Source: an uncultured Holophagaceae bacterium (GTDB lineage Bacteria; Acidobacteriota; Holophagae; Holophagales; Holophagaceae). From it: 64,000 bases of DNA. Below are positions 48,794 through 53,221 of the stretch, piece by piece. The position numbers and the translations under genes are program-made. The first letter of the stretch is position 1; every line of letters starts with the position of its first letter. Location of the stretch: the NCBI GenBank assembly GCA_903913215.1, contig CAIWKE010000013.1:62001-126000 (forward strand), given 5' to 3'. The notes below the pieces were generated by a model. It saw nothing but the letters and a program-made list of their open reading frames with translations, had not been told where the DNA came from and did no database searches.

Positions 48794-49956
48794 TGACCCA
48801 CCGGCTCGGCCCCATCGAGGCCGCGCCTGGCCTCGAGCTGCTGGGGCCCCGGGGGCCCGAGATCGCCCAGCTCTTCACGCGTCCCTTCCTGGTGCTGCAC
48901 CGGGCCTCGGGACTTTACACCGCCCGCACCTGCCTCCTGCTGCTGCTGGACCTGGGTTGGGAAGCCCGCCTGCGGACAGGCACCACGCTGGACGCCCTCT
49001 GCGCGGGACTGCCGGACCAAGCCCGCAAGCCCCTGGCCTGGATGCTGCCCTTCCTGGCAGGCGAGGGCTTGCTCCAGGTCTCCAACGGCACCTACCGCAT
49101 GGAGGGGGAGCCGGATCTGGACCTGGTGAACCTTCGCGAAGCCACTGAGATAGAGGTCCCAGGCCATGGCACCAACTTCGACCTGCTGGATGGGGTCCGC
49201 TCCCACATCCAACCCTTCTTCACCGAAGGCAAGGCTGGCGAGGGGCTGCTCTTCGACCTGGCTCTGTTCCCGCTCTGGCTCTCCTACTTCCGGAACGAGA
49301 ACCTGGGCTACTTTCCCAACAACCTGCTCACCCTCCTGGCCCTGCGGGAGCGCCTGCCTGCGGGTGCTCGCGTCCTCGAGCTGGGAGGCGGCGCCGGCTC
49401 ATTCGCGCAGCTGCTGGCCCGCCAGGGTGCCGAGCAGGGCTGGCTGGGCACCATCGCCGAGTACCGCTTCACGGACATCGCGCCCACCTTCCTGCGCCGG
49501 GCGCAGCGGGAGCTGAAGCTTGCCGCGCCGGGCCTGTCCCTCAGCTTCCAGTCTCTGGATCTGAACCGGCCCCTGGGGGACCAGGGCATCGAGGCTGGCA
49601 GCCTGGACGCCATCGTGGGCGTCAATGTGCTGCACGTGGCCCAGGACCTGGAGGCCACCCTGCGGAACCTGCGCACCTGCCTGAAACCGGGCGGCTGCCT
49701 GGTGGTGGGCGAATGCCTCAAGGCCACCCTCGACACGCCCCTGTACCTGGAGTTCTTCTTCAGCTTCATCAAGAGCTTCACCGAGGTCCGCCTGGATCCC
49801 CACTGGCGACCCCGCCACGGCTTCCTCACGCCCGAAGCCTGGGAAGCCGCCCTGACCCACGCCGGATTCCAGGATCTCCTCAGCGTCCCACCCCCGCGAC
49901 CCCTCATGGATCAGCATCCAAACTTCAACGCTGGGGCCTTTTCGGCACGGGCCTAA
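48793..49956 (+). CDS. Class I SAM-dependent methyltransferase, substrate unknown
   Basis: Protein of 387 residues. The SAM motif I is VLELGGGAGSFAQLLARQGA (about 195-214) and motif II/III is LDAIVGVNVLHVAQDLEATL with CLKPGGCLVVGECLK. An N-terminal helical region of about 150 residues precedes the methylase; the layout resembles methyltransferases of polyketide/phenol type or of small-molecule pathways. The ATG overlaps the prs stop. Its stop overlaps the stop of the convergent DsbD-N-like gene by four bases. Confidence 0.82.
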   Translation: MTHRLGPIEAAPGLELLGPRGPEIAQLFTRPFLVLHRASGLYTARTCLLLLLDLGWEARLRTGTTLDALCAGLPDQARKPLAWMLPFLAGEGLLQVSNGTYRMEGEPDLDLVNLREATEIEVPGHGTNFDLLDGVRSHIQPFFTEGKAGEGLLFDLALFPLWLSYFRNENLGYFPNNLLTLLALRERLPAGARVLELGGGAGSFAQLLARQGAEQGWLGTIAEYRFTDIAPTFLRRAQRELKLAAPGLSLSFQSLDLNRPLGDQGIEAGSLDAIVGVNVLHVAQDLEATLRNLRTCLKPGGCLVVGECLKATLDTPLYLEFFFSFIKSFTEVRLDPHWRPRHGFLTPEAWEAALTHAGFQDLLSVPPPRPLMDQHPNFNAGAFSARA

Positions 49957-50357
49957 GGCATTAGGTCGGCAGCATGCACGGTCACCACGCGCCGCTGGGG
50001 CAGGAAGCAGACGCCGGCCTCCCCCTCGGTGCAGGGCTGGAAGGTCACGCGAAGCTCCACGGGATCCATCAATCCCTCGCCGCGCAGGGGCACCTCCACG
50101 GTGCCACGCCAGATGGGATCGTCCGTCTCATCATTACCAGAGGCGGGGGGCAGGGCCCCCAGGCTGAGCTGCCCCGGCGAGGACAGCAGCCCCACCTTGA
50201 AGGCCCGCACCTTGAGGTGGACACCTGCGGGGATCTCGATGCGCAGGTGGCCCTGCCGGAGTTGGATGCCCACATCCTTGGCCGGATCAAAGGCCAGGAG
50301 CCGCATCGCGAAGATGGCGGTCCAGGGGAGGATGCGCAGGTTCCGGTTAAGCCTCAT
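49953..50357 (-). CDS. DsbD N-terminal-domain-like protein (PF11412-like)
   Basis: Protein of 134 residues with an N-terminal signal-like segment (RLNRNLRILPWTAIFAMRLL). The C-terminal part VTFQPCTEGEAGVCFLPQRR (Cys109 and Cys117) matches the active-site loop of the DsbD alpha domain, which accepts and passes reducing equivalents in the periplasm. The membrane and C-terminal domains of DsbD are missing, so it is a free-standing redox module. It is the last gene of a four-gene operon (thioredoxin-DUF4266, DUF3570, ApbE); its ATG overlaps the apbE stop (ATGA). Confidence 0.75.
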   Translation of the reverse strand: MRLNRNLRILPWTAIFAMRLLAFDPAKDVGIQLRQGHLRIEIPAGVHLKVRAFKVGLLSSPGQLSLGALPPASGNDETDDPIWRGTVEVPLRGEGLMDPVELRVTFQPCTEGEAGVCFLPQRRVVTVHAADLMP

Positions 50358-51319
50358 GCGGTGGCCTCCTGGGGGCGCAGGGTGGCGATCCGGTCCATGC
50401 CACGGGTGAGCAGCAGGTCCCCGGTCTCGGTGACGAGGGCCCCTTCGACGCCGGGTCGGCTTTCGAGGAGGGCCAGCCCCTGGGCGGGTCCCAGCAGGAA
50501 GGCCGCTGTGGCCAGTTGGCCTGCGAGAAAGGCCGTGGGTGCCACCACCGTGACTGAGCGCAGGCCCCGGGCGGGCTGGCCCGTGGTGGCGTCGAGGAGG
50601 TGGTGGTAGCGCACTCCATCCTGCACAAAGCCCCGCTCATAGTCGCCGGAGGTGGCGATGCCCGCGCCTGCCTTGATGCGGATGGCCAGGAGGCAGCGTC
50701 CGGGCTGAAAGGGATCGAGCACGCCCACGGACCAGGGCTGACCATCCCCGCGGCGGCCCAGGGTGCGGACATCGCCCAGGAAGTTGATGATGGCGCTGTC
50801 CACGCCTTCGGCCGAGAGCAACTCCGCCACGCGGTCCACGGCGTATTCCTTGCCCACGCCACCCAGGTCCAGTTCCATGCCCACATTCCCCAGCGCCACG
50901 GAACCGTGCTTCAGGCTCAGGGCCCGCGCGTCCACCAGAGGCAGGAGGGCTGCCAATTCTGCTGCGGTGGGCACACGCTGGGCCTTGAAGTCCCAGGCCC
51001 GCCGCAGGATGCCCACTGTGGGATCGAAGCGCCCCGCGCTCAGGGTCCAAAGGTCCAGGGCAGCGCGGAGCAGGTGCTCCGTCTCCTCGTCCACCACCAG
51101 GGGGCCCCAGCCCGCCTGGCGGTTGATCTCGGAGAGGACACTTTCGGGCCGGTACCGGGAGAACTTGGCCTCGATGCGGCGGGCTTCGCGCTCCAGGGAC
51201 CGGGCCGTGCGCGCTGCAGCTGCCTGGCCCCGGGCATCCACGAAGCGCACCAGGGCCTCGCCCCCCATGAGCGGGAAGCGCGTGGTGTAGAGGGCCCGGG
51301 CGGGCTTCAGTAGGTCCAC
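50354..51319 (-). CDS. apbE: ApbE-family FAD:protein FMN transferase (atypical)
   Basis: Attaches FMN from FAD to Ser/Thr of exported flavoproteins in the known family. It is 321 residues. FRYRP-type N-terminal segment: EAKFSRYRPESVLSEINR; core: MELDLGGVGKEYAVDRVAELL and IINFLGDVRTLGRR; C-terminal: HLLDATTGQPARGLRSVTVV. The usual metal-site Asp in AD-x-L-A-T-A is Gly267 here (LAGQLATAAF), while Thr271 is kept. There is no signal peptide. The GTG start overlaps the DUF3570 gene by 13 bases. It is translationally coupled to a likely substrate gene. Confidence 0.88.
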   Translation of the reverse strand: MDLLKPARALYTTRFPLMGGEALVRFVDARGQAAAARTARSLEREARRIEAKFSRYRPESVLSEINRQAGWGPLVVDEETEHLLRAALDLWTLSAGRFDPTVGILRRAWDFKAQRVPTAAELAALLPLVDARALSLKHGSVALGNVGMELDLGGVGKEYAVDRVAELLSAEGVDSAIINFLGDVRTLGRRGDGQPWSVGVLDPFQPGRCLLAIRIKAGAGIATSGDYERGFVQDGVRYHHLLDATTGQPARGLRSVTVVAPTAFLAGQLATAAFLLGPAQGLALLESRPGVEGALVTETGDLLLTRGMDRIATLRPQEATA

Positions 51320-52530
51320 TTCAGACCGACTGTGAGTGTGGTGGTGTTGACGTCCGCCGCCGAGGTGCCTGGGCCGGAGTAGACGGCGGGACTATTGCTG
51401 GTGCCCGCCGTGGCTAAGGGAGTGATGGATTTCTTCCCCTGCTGGAACTGATAGGTGGCCCCCACGCTGGCAGTCCACCCCTCCGCGATCTCCGTGGAGA
51501 TCGTGAGGCCTGCCAGCAGGCTCTGCATGGCCGAGAGCCGGTAGTCCGAGGACATGAAGGGCTGGGCCGTGGCGAACTTCGGGGCATAGAAGCTGGCATC
51601 GTTCTGCGTGTAGTAGCGCAGCCGGGGCGACACGATCCAGCCATCATCCAGGCGCTGGTCGTAGGTGAAGTCCAAGGTGTGGGCCTTCAGCCCCCAGTCG
51701 TCGCTGTAATAGCGGTACGAGGTCTTCAGGGCGCCGTCCCACTCGAAGCGGTGGGCCTGCTTGAGGAGCCAGGCGTCCCGCTGCCGGGTGCCGGGCCGGT
51801 GCTCAGAAAGCGTCGTGATGCCCACGGGCACGATGAGGTAGGGCTCGTCCAGGTAGCCCTCCAGCTTCATGCGGCTGACAGAGACGTCCACCAGATCGTT
51901 CTCGCCCATGACCCAGGTCCAGCCCAGGGCCAGGCCGTGGGTTTTCTTGGCGAGATGCACGGGGCGGGTGACGGGGGAGACCGTGTCGTCGGCGTAGGAG
52001 AGGCCGTAGTGCAGGGTGCCGCGGCCCTCGAACATGGTCCAGGCATCGGAGATCCCGTATTCCTTGGAGAGGTAGTCCTTCTCTGCGGAGTGGGAGAGGT
52101 CGATGGTGGGCAGGTGCGCGCCAAAGCGACGGCTCCAGCTGATACCCTCGGCCTTGCGCTCATCCGAGTAGGGCACCATGGGCACCTTGCCCGCAGCGGT
52201 GGTGGAGCTGCCCGAAGCCCCCGTGGTGGTGGTGACGCTCAGGGTGGGATAGCCCCCGGTGGGCGAGGCCCCGGAGATGGTGTCGTGGGTGAGCAGCAGG
52301 TCCAACTGACCCCAGCTGACCCCCAAGTCCTGGTGCAGGAGCAGGGTGGGACTGAGGACCGTGGTGCGGCCATCGGACTCGCTGTAGAAAAGGGTGCGCA
52401 GCTCCACGGAGGACTGGGCCTGGAGCTGCCGTCCTCCCAGGACGCCCACACCCGCCATGAACCAGCTCAGGCCCTGGACGGAGCGCCGGTGACGGCTTCG
52501 GACGATGAGGGTGTGCTTAGTTGCAGCCAC
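51307..52530 (-). CDS. DUF3570 predicted outer-membrane beta-barrel protein with ApbE-like acceptor motif
   Basis: Protein of 407 residues. GTG 52530 is used because GGGAGG lies 5 bases upstream; it overlaps the preceding gene by 14 bases. A signal peptide ends near GGRQLQAQS. The rest alternates in short beta strands and ends WTY, a typical outer-membrane C-terminus. Residues 83-89 read D-T-I-S-G-A-S, fitting the Dxx(S/T)GA(S/T) motif to which ApbE attaches FMN. It sits between a thioredoxin-DUF4266 gene and apbE. Function unknown; electron or metal transfer across the outer membrane is a guess. Confidence 0.85.
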   Translation of the reverse strand: MAATKHTLIVRSRHRRSVQGLSWFMAGVGVLGGRQLQAQSSVELRTLFYSESDGRTTVLSPTLLLHQDLGVSWGQLDLLLTHDTISGASPTGGYPTLSVTTTTGASGSSTTAAGKVPMVPYSDERKAEGISWSRRFGAHLPTIDLSHSAEKDYLSKEYGISDAWTMFEGRGTLHYGLSYADDTVSPVTRPVHLAKKTHGLALGWTWVMGENDLVDVSVSRMKLEGYLDEPYLIVPVGITTLSEHRPGTRQRDAWLLKQAHRFEWDGALKTSYRYYSDDWGLKAHTLDFTYDQRLDDGWIVSPRLRYYTQNDASFYAPKFATAQPFMSSDYRLSAMQSLLAGLTISTEIAEGWTASVGATYQFQQGKKSITPLATAGTSNSPAVYSGPGTSAADVNTTTLTVGLKWTY

Positions 52531-53221
52531 AGCCACCTCCCGCTGCGCCGCCGTTGCCCGATGCGCCTTCCTTGCTGGCATGGATGTGCTCCCGGAACAT
52601 GCTGGTGAGCCGATCGCCATCCAGGCTCATGATGGGATCCGCCAGATGGCCCCGCTGCCAGGCCTTCAGGCTGCCCGTGGCCTGGAGCCCCGAGGCCACC
52701 CGCAGGTCCGCCCCCGGGGCGCCGCGCTTCTGGAGCAGCGCCACCACGGCCTCCTCCTCGGCCTTCAGGTGCTCGCCCCCTTCGAAGCGGGCCACGATGT
52801 TGCCCTCCTGATCGATGAGGAAGGAGGTGGGCATGGCCACCACACCATAGGTCTCGGCACTCCTGCCCGTGGTGTCCGAGAGCACCATGAATTTCACGGG
52901 GGTCCGCTCCAGGAAAGCGGTGACTGCGGACAGGTCCTCATCCAGGGACACGCCCACGGCCTGGAAACCCATGGCGCCGTAGCGACTCTGCAGCGAGTCG
53001 ATGAAGGGGAAGCTCTTGCGGCAGGGCCCGCACCAGGAGGCCCAGAAGTCCAGCAGCACCACCTTGCCCTTCAGGCTGTCCAAGGCAAAGGCTTTACCCC
53101 GCAGGTCATTGGCCTTCAGCACCGGCGCGGGCGCTCCCGCGTGGAGGACCGGTGCCGAGAGCAACAGAGGAATGACCATCAGAAAGGCCAGCCAGGGGCG
53201 GCGTGCGGTACGAGGAACCAT
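52517..53221 (-). CDS. TlpA-like thioredoxin fused to a DUF4266-like Cys-Gly-Cys-Asn tail
   Basis: Protein of 234 residues. A signal peptide or anchor (WLAFLMVIPLLLSAPVLHAG) is followed by a TlpA/ResA thioredoxin domain with WCGPC at 63-67 and cis-Pro131. Residues about 184-234 (LKAWQRGHLADPIM, then HASKEGASGNGGAAGGGCGCN) look like DUF4266, normally a separate small lipoprotein; the CGC dithiol is Cys231/Cys233. ATG 53221 is chosen because GGAG lies 5 bases upstream. It is the first gene of the redox operon, and the next gene overlaps its end. Confidence 0.82.
   Translation of the reverse strand: MVPRTARRPWLAFLMVIPLLLSAPVLHAGAPAPVLKANDLRGKAFALDSLKGKVVLLDFWASWCGPCRKSFPFIDSLQSRYGAMGFQAVGVSLDEDLSAVTAFLERTPVKFMVLSDTTGRSAETYGVVAMPTSFLIDQEGNIVARFEGGEHLKAEEEAVVALLQKRGAPGADLRVASGLQATGSLKAWQRGHLADPIMSLDGDRLTSMFREHIHASKEGASGNGGAAGGGCGCN

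Follow-up and report, generated by a model that had tools for sequence, protein, structure and literature searches.

A DUF3570 outer-membrane barrel with predicted flavin sites beside an ApbE without a signal peptide in an uncultured Holophagaceae bacterium

Covalent attachment of FMN by ApbE, the FAD:protein FMN transferase, takes place in the periplasm in most systems studied, and where cytosolic ApbEs have been published their targets are cytosolic fumarate reductases (review, PMC12052999). Among the closest known systems is the DUF3570 protein (Pfam family PF12094) of Chlorobium luteolum. According to Meheust et al. (2021, PMC8238504), its cognate ApbE flavinylates it at two [S/T]GA[S/T] sites, as seen by gel fluorescence and Ser-to-Ala mutants; flavinylation was abolished only when both serines were changed. 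The two proteins were co-expressed in E. coli under a strategy of signal-truncated constructs, and the DUF3570 protein was found mostly in the insoluble pellet. The same paper lists clusters in which ApbE and DUF3570 occur together with DUF4266 and a thioredoxin-like protein; DsbD may be present or not (316 clusters lack it), and a role in iron assimilation is guessed for them. In the excerpts of that paper used here, no discussion was found of where the cluster ApbE resides or of barrel topology. Elsewhere in the open-access literature searched, DUF3570, PF12094 and DUF4266 are not mentioned, and DUF3570 is not among the models in the relevant section of a 2024 structure survey of flavinylation (PMC11334425).

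Gene order of the locus

The 64,000-nucleotide stretch of DNA analysed here (the window) contains a redox unit of four genes, all on the minus strand, in which neighbours overlap by a few bases. The first ORF (52517..53221) joins a TlpA-like thioredoxin to a C-terminal DUF4266 domain (Redoxin E 1.6e-28, DUF4266 E 4.9e-21); its thioredoxin motif WCGPC lies at 53021-53035, and the protein ends in GGGCGCN, with the CGCN of this tail at 52520-52531. The DUF3570 gene (51307..52536) follows, encoding 409 amino acids from a GTG at 52536, with a signal sequence and a predicted 16-strand outer-membrane barrel; its assignment to PF12094 is firm (E 4.5e-64, 217.2 bits against a cut-off of 25). The third gene is apbE (50354..51319; Pfam ApbE, PF02424, E 1.9e-76, 257.5 bits against a cut-off of 25.6), whose product lacks a signal peptide and, when aligned to solved ApbEs, retains the catalytic segment SGDYER..VRYHHLLD..TG. 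The direct overlap of the DUF3570 gene with apbE, remarked on in an earlier note on this DNA, amounts to 13 bases, from the apbE GTG at 51319 to the DUF3570 end at 51307. A stand-alone N-terminal DsbD domain (nDsbD-like; 49953..50357, Pfam DsbD_N E 1.6e-6) lies 3' of apbE and overlaps its end; it carries the cysteine pair CTEGEAGVC at 50007-50033.

This arrangement fits the DUF3570 electron-transfer cluster of Meheust et al., with the thioredoxin and DUF4266 present as a single fused protein. Like the C. luteolum system (as described in excerpts of PMC8238504), it combines a PF12094 protein with two [S/T]GA[S/T] sites, an apbE neighbour, and DUF4266 and thioredoxin partners. It differs in that the thioredoxin is of the TlpA/Redoxin type and fused to DUF4266, and in the stand-alone nDsbD of the operon. 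It is not a cluster of the DsbD type, since nDsbD is all that the operon holds of DsbD; the one DsbD transmembrane protein of the genome is full length and is encoded on another contig. The window belongs to a genome of Holophagaceae type (Acidobacteriota); the nearest named loci are 59-68% identical. Within the window's genus DUF3570 is patchy, occurring in 5 of the 21 genomes listed, the window's own genome included. A search of a plasmid collection gave two weak Hymenobacter matches.

Predicted flavinylation sites and the barrel

The motif DTISGAS at 52264..52284 (minus strand), an exact match to D-x-x-[S/T]-G-A-[S/T], lies within the DUF3570 protein as the earlier note had stated. That note numbered it as residues 83-89; counted from the GTG at 52536 it occupies residues 85-91, which makes Ser91 (52264-52266) the candidate acceptor, and it corresponds to residues 47-53 of the stretch folded as the mature protein. 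No other D..[ST]GA[ST] occurs in the window (93,824 residues in six-frame stop-to-stop segments of at least 60 amino acids), and only 0.6% of 20,000 shuffles of the 368-residue barrel part produce one. A putative second site, overlooked in the earlier note, starts 11 residues past the first in the same loop: TTTTGAS (52213..52233, minus strand), with Ser108 as acceptor and with no Asp at its first position. In 9 of 9 Holophagaceae examined this position reads [VI]TT[TS]T[GS]ASG. No FMN_bind protein was found in the window genome, which makes DUF3570 the obvious ApbE substrate there.

The proposal that went with the motif, that of an outer-membrane barrel carrying flavin, is almost certainly correct. 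It is not new, flavinylation of the C. luteolum protein having been published in 2021 (PMC8238504). What is of lasting interest in this locus and its relatives is the signal-less ApbE, a clade with heme motifs and the TlpA-DUF4266 fusion. In the open-access literature searched, no report was found of a signal-less cluster ApbE together with an exported barrel, of CxxCH in the flavin loop, or of such a fusion.

Conservation of the site was followed in 104 DUF3570 ORFs, same-genome duplicates having been removed. At site 1 the exact form D..[ST]GA[ST] occurs in 38, with E..[ST]GA[ST] in 5, D..[ST]SA[ST] in 32, S..[ST]SA[ST] in 20, D..[ST]AA[ST] in 6 and DSITGSS in 1; one further sequence is unlike any of these and in one the region is absent. 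The earlier note had made its reading depend on conservation of the motif next to apbE. The exact motif is not universal even there; for example, clusters of the Flavobacterium type, also beside apbE, have D..TSAS. The site as a site is conserved, 101 of the 104 satisfying the looser [DES]..[ST][GSA]A[ST]. A second [ST][GS]A[ST] or TxPSG is found downstream in 38 of 43 GA-type sequences, 28 of 32 D..SAS, 20 of 20 S..SAS (all of them [ST]GA[ST]) and 1 of 6 AA-type. The family constant in DUF3570, to judge from these alignments, is thus a Ser/Thr acceptor loop and not the identity of the textbook motif. One Flavobacterium-type cluster (L093) appears under a Bifidobacterium breve MAG title, probably a binning error.

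A structural loop element that is not flavinylated in this organism, with the cluster ApbE modifying some cytosolic protein, could also account for the motif. In 58 of the 104 members Ser or Ala stands in place of the Gly although an ApbE is nearby, which would agree with that, as would the Klebsiella precedent of a cytosolic ApbE with a cytosolic substrate (PMC12052999). Against it stand the published flavinylation of a DUF3570 protein that has the same pair of motifs (PMC8238504), the lack of any second D..[ST]GA[ST] in the window, and the window's own clade on the tree, where the exact motif is kept in 12 of 12 members. (On this tree L040b was given the motif of its first copy, its own loop being DSISSAS; the GA and SAS group counts are each off by one row, and the heme result below is unaffected.) A purely structural role is considered highly improbable.

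The AlphaFold2 model of the protein, built with 69 sequences, has 16 strands (pLDDT 86, pTM 0.82). Site 1 lies at the end of strand 3; the loop of residues 52-84 is poorly defined, and with pLDDT below 50 in the flavin loop its position is known from strand order only. An even-stranded closed barrel, a hydrophobic N-terminus and a C-terminal aromatic strand ending in KWTY all mark an outer-membrane protein. Full-length alignments to the solved outer-membrane barrels BamA, PelB, PgaA, BcsC, CymA and OmpG score Z 18-22; the matches listed in the structure search comprise generic outer-membrane barrels and include no redox barrel.

Conserved residues are concentrated at one end of the model. Among the 40 most strongly conserved, 34 are located in the loop-end third or in loops on that side, against 4 at the opposite end (Fisher P 1.3e-5, for a cut chosen post hoc and residues that are not independent). 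They include E114, D116, D146, R213, R237, D241, W243, H248 and Q273, and the most conserved stretch of the barrel, YRYYSDDWG (51691..51717, minus strand), lies by strand count at the flavin-loop end. Such a pattern would be expected of an active site, or of a docking site, next to the flavins. With both termini placed in the periplasm, the flavin loop is predicted to point outward, so that the barrel would carry one or two phosphoester-bound FMN on a long outward loop, at Ser91 and probably also at site 2. Alternatively the flavins might sit in the barrel lumen, or face the periplasm if the barrel is inverted, and serve periplasmic thiol chemistry only. Partners of the periplasmic thioredoxin type and the low model confidence of the flavin loop are compatible with such a placement, but it is unlikely in view of the even strand number, the location of the N- and C-termini on the short-turn side, and the first-to-last strand alignment with PgaA and OmpG, barrels of known orientation. 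An outward loop is the preferred placement.

Location of the cluster ApbE

For each cluster ApbE the best ten-residue hydrophobicity was taken from the part that precedes the catalytic domain, counting all in-frame starts. This is a hydrophobicity rule and not SignalP, and the cut was chosen after the two-peaked distribution of ApbE values had been seen (up to 1.45 on one side, from 1.88 up on the other). In the window ApbE 14 residues separate the GTG, the only usable start, from the catalytic domain; their best value is 0.53 and there is no upstream start. Neither an N-terminal nor a lipoprotein signal, as would mark the periplasmic lipid-anchored ApbE of the usual kind, is present. A frameshift or a wrong start hiding a signal was considered and rejected: the short N-terminus recurs in 8 of 8 further Holophagaceae loci, and the window frame has no start further upstream.

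A cluster ApbE without signal is found in 35 of 36 GA-type loci (the window included; other examples are L010, L012, L013, L015 and L031-L034), in 21 of 30 D..SAS loci and in the single DSITGSS locus, as against 0 of 17 S..SAS and 0 of 11 heme-type loci; the trait changes only twice on the tree, so these loci are not independent. Left out of the count were four ApbE ORFs whose domain start fell outside the match (one each in L008, L024, L048 and L075) and same-genome duplicates. The single exception, L004, is scored as having a signal only on account of an in-frame start within the upstream gene; its ApbE domain begins 21 codons past the DUF3570 stop. A control within the same genomes gave a signal in 17 of 17 testable ApbEs encoded elsewhere versus 0 of 13 cluster ApbEs (L149 left out). 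The DUF3570 proteins themselves have a hydrophobic N-terminal stretch in 113 of 113 cases with a readable start, all at 1.56 or more, the low end being somewhat under the ApbE cut; the window protein has a KD value of 1.71.

An exported barrel next to a signal-less ApbE suggests that the flavin is probably attached before export. The C. luteolum protein, flavinylated and mostly insoluble in E. coli (PMC8238504), indicates that an unfolded cytosolic barrel can be an ApbE substrate. A likeness can be drawn to the cytosolic ApbE of Klebsiella pneumoniae, which also has no signal peptide and acts in flavinylation beside its target gene; its target, however, is a soluble, non-exported fumarate reductase, whereas that of the window is an exported barrel (PMC12052999).

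Loading in the periplasm has to be weighed here, either by an exported second ApbE or by the cluster enzyme leaving the cytosol along a non-classical or piggy-back route. Two or more ApbEs are present in most of the 57 genomes searched, periplasmic action is the rule among studied systems (PMC12052999), and heme-type and several SAS-type clusters have an exported ApbE of their own. In the window genome another ApbE gene (contig C32:23638-24411, L130, L132) encodes a protein that probably has a signal (KD 2.18) and could act in the periplasm. This gene adjoins a porin-like ORF and is not near any DUF3570, which speaks against its serving the barrel; no D..[ST]GA[ST] protein was seen near it. 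Moreover, nine of the 57 genomes (G185, G254, G474, G488, G492, G495, G497, G498 and G501) have a single ApbE, the cluster enzyme without a signal; its frame length equals that of the cluster gene. Periplasmic loading is accordingly regarded as somewhat unlikely. In the favoured sequence of events the cluster ApbE most likely modifies the still unfolded DUF3570 precursor while it is in the cytosol, the compartment with available FAD; the FMN would then cross the inner membrane with the chain and enter the outer membrane with it. A point against this order of events is that passage through the Sec channel is not known for any protein with covalent flavin.

If cytosolic loading is true, it would overturn the assumption that envelope proteins receive their covalent flavin outside the cytosol, it would explain how such proteins are loaded in Gram-negative cells without FAD export, and it would make passage of a flavin-bearing chain through the Sec channel directly testable.

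Export by the Tat pathway was rejected as a general answer to the puzzle of the cytosolic ApbE, because Arg-Arg is mostly absent from the leaders of gamma- and epsilonproteobacterial and Flavobacterium DUF3570 proteins that have the same kind of ApbE; for Holophagaceae it is possible. The leaders of the Holophagaceae proteins (L010, L012, L013, L015, L031-L034 and the window, 52400-52536) have Arg-Arg stretches and a weakly hydrophobic core, and look a little Tat-like.

Proposed electron route and the heme-motif clade

The electron donor is indicated by the TlpA-DUF4266 fusion, which is found in 16 of 110 DUF4266 ORFs, all from Acidobacteriota (the window, L003-L005, L008-L015 and L031-L034). 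Its occurrence in 16 loci argues that thioredoxin and DUF4266 work together. A C-terminal CxC is present in all 110 ORFs, in the form GGCGCN in 86 of them. The stand-alone nDsbD-like gene, with its cysteine pair kept, is confined to Holophagaceae among the loci compared (9 ORFs). Electrons would probably run from DsbD, possibly via the stand-alone nDsbD, to the TlpA domain. This would pass them to the CxC that closes the Gly-rich tail of DUF4266, and so to the flavins; these may in turn reduce an external acceptor (perhaps a metal) or a substrate located in the conserved loop-end pocket. Taken as a whole, the model of FMN on an outward barrel loop, loaded in the cytosol by a signal-less ApbE and supplied through DsbD, TlpA and DUF4266, is held to be probable, with moderate confidence. 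It is built on gene order, motifs, the missing ApbE signal, the barrel model and conservation, together with the flavinylation published for a relative; from these we infer flavin attachment in the window protein, its timing, the orientation, the electron route and the acceptor. As a side observation, the GGCGC[NK] C-terminus of DUF4266 is near-invariant across phyla, unusually strict for the tail of a small lipoprotein, and might be a metal or redox tag.

In some relatives the flavin loop contains a heme c motif. The loop D-A-[IV]-[ST]-[AG]-[AS]-S-D-S-C-x-R-C-H was found in 5 of the 104 DUF3570 ORFs, and a closer search of one acidobacterial class (193 genomes; 18 genome matches, one too weak for DUF3570) gave this loop, with its CxxCH, in 14 of 17 DUF3570s, from 14 genomes. 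In these heme-type loci (L017, L019, L021, L022, L023 and L116-L124) CxxCH comes directly after the flavinylation site, and in L122 the exact flavin motif and the heme motif stand together, DAITGASDSCARCH. The window DUF3570 has no CxxCH, and so does not qualify as a c-type cytochrome. In a tree from which the loop columns were excluded, the heme-type proteins form a single clade (13 rows, SH-aLRT 100). Their ApbE lies beside the gene and is exported in all 11 loci with a readable ApbE start; gene calls around the heme loci came from a greedy ORF picker that fails in places, and only the ApbE, DUF3570 and thioredoxin labels were used.

None of the five heme-type DUF3570s examined retains the second flavin site, and heme is read as replacing the second flavin in this clade. 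The first Ser may still be flavinylated there, although a Gly-to-Ala change lowers flavinylation in another ApbE substrate (review). Fumarate reductases offer a parallel, flavin and heme c interchanging in related electron-transfer proteins (PMC8238504). In DUF3570, as distinct from that case, the exchange would occur inside a single loop of the barrel family, where D-x-x-[ST]-x-[AS]-S is retained and CxxCH follows two residues on. The clade provides evolutionary evidence for the flavin loop as a redox centre, and within a single barrel it offers a natural flavin-to-heme series. An extension to the larger part of DUF3570, in which FMN is attached in the cytosol and carried through Sec and BAM to the surface, and in which the same loop serves as a flavin, a flavin-plus-heme or a heme site according to the bacterium, is plausible but tentative. 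At three of the heme-type loci (L119, L123 and L124) a neighbouring ORF also contains CxxCH.
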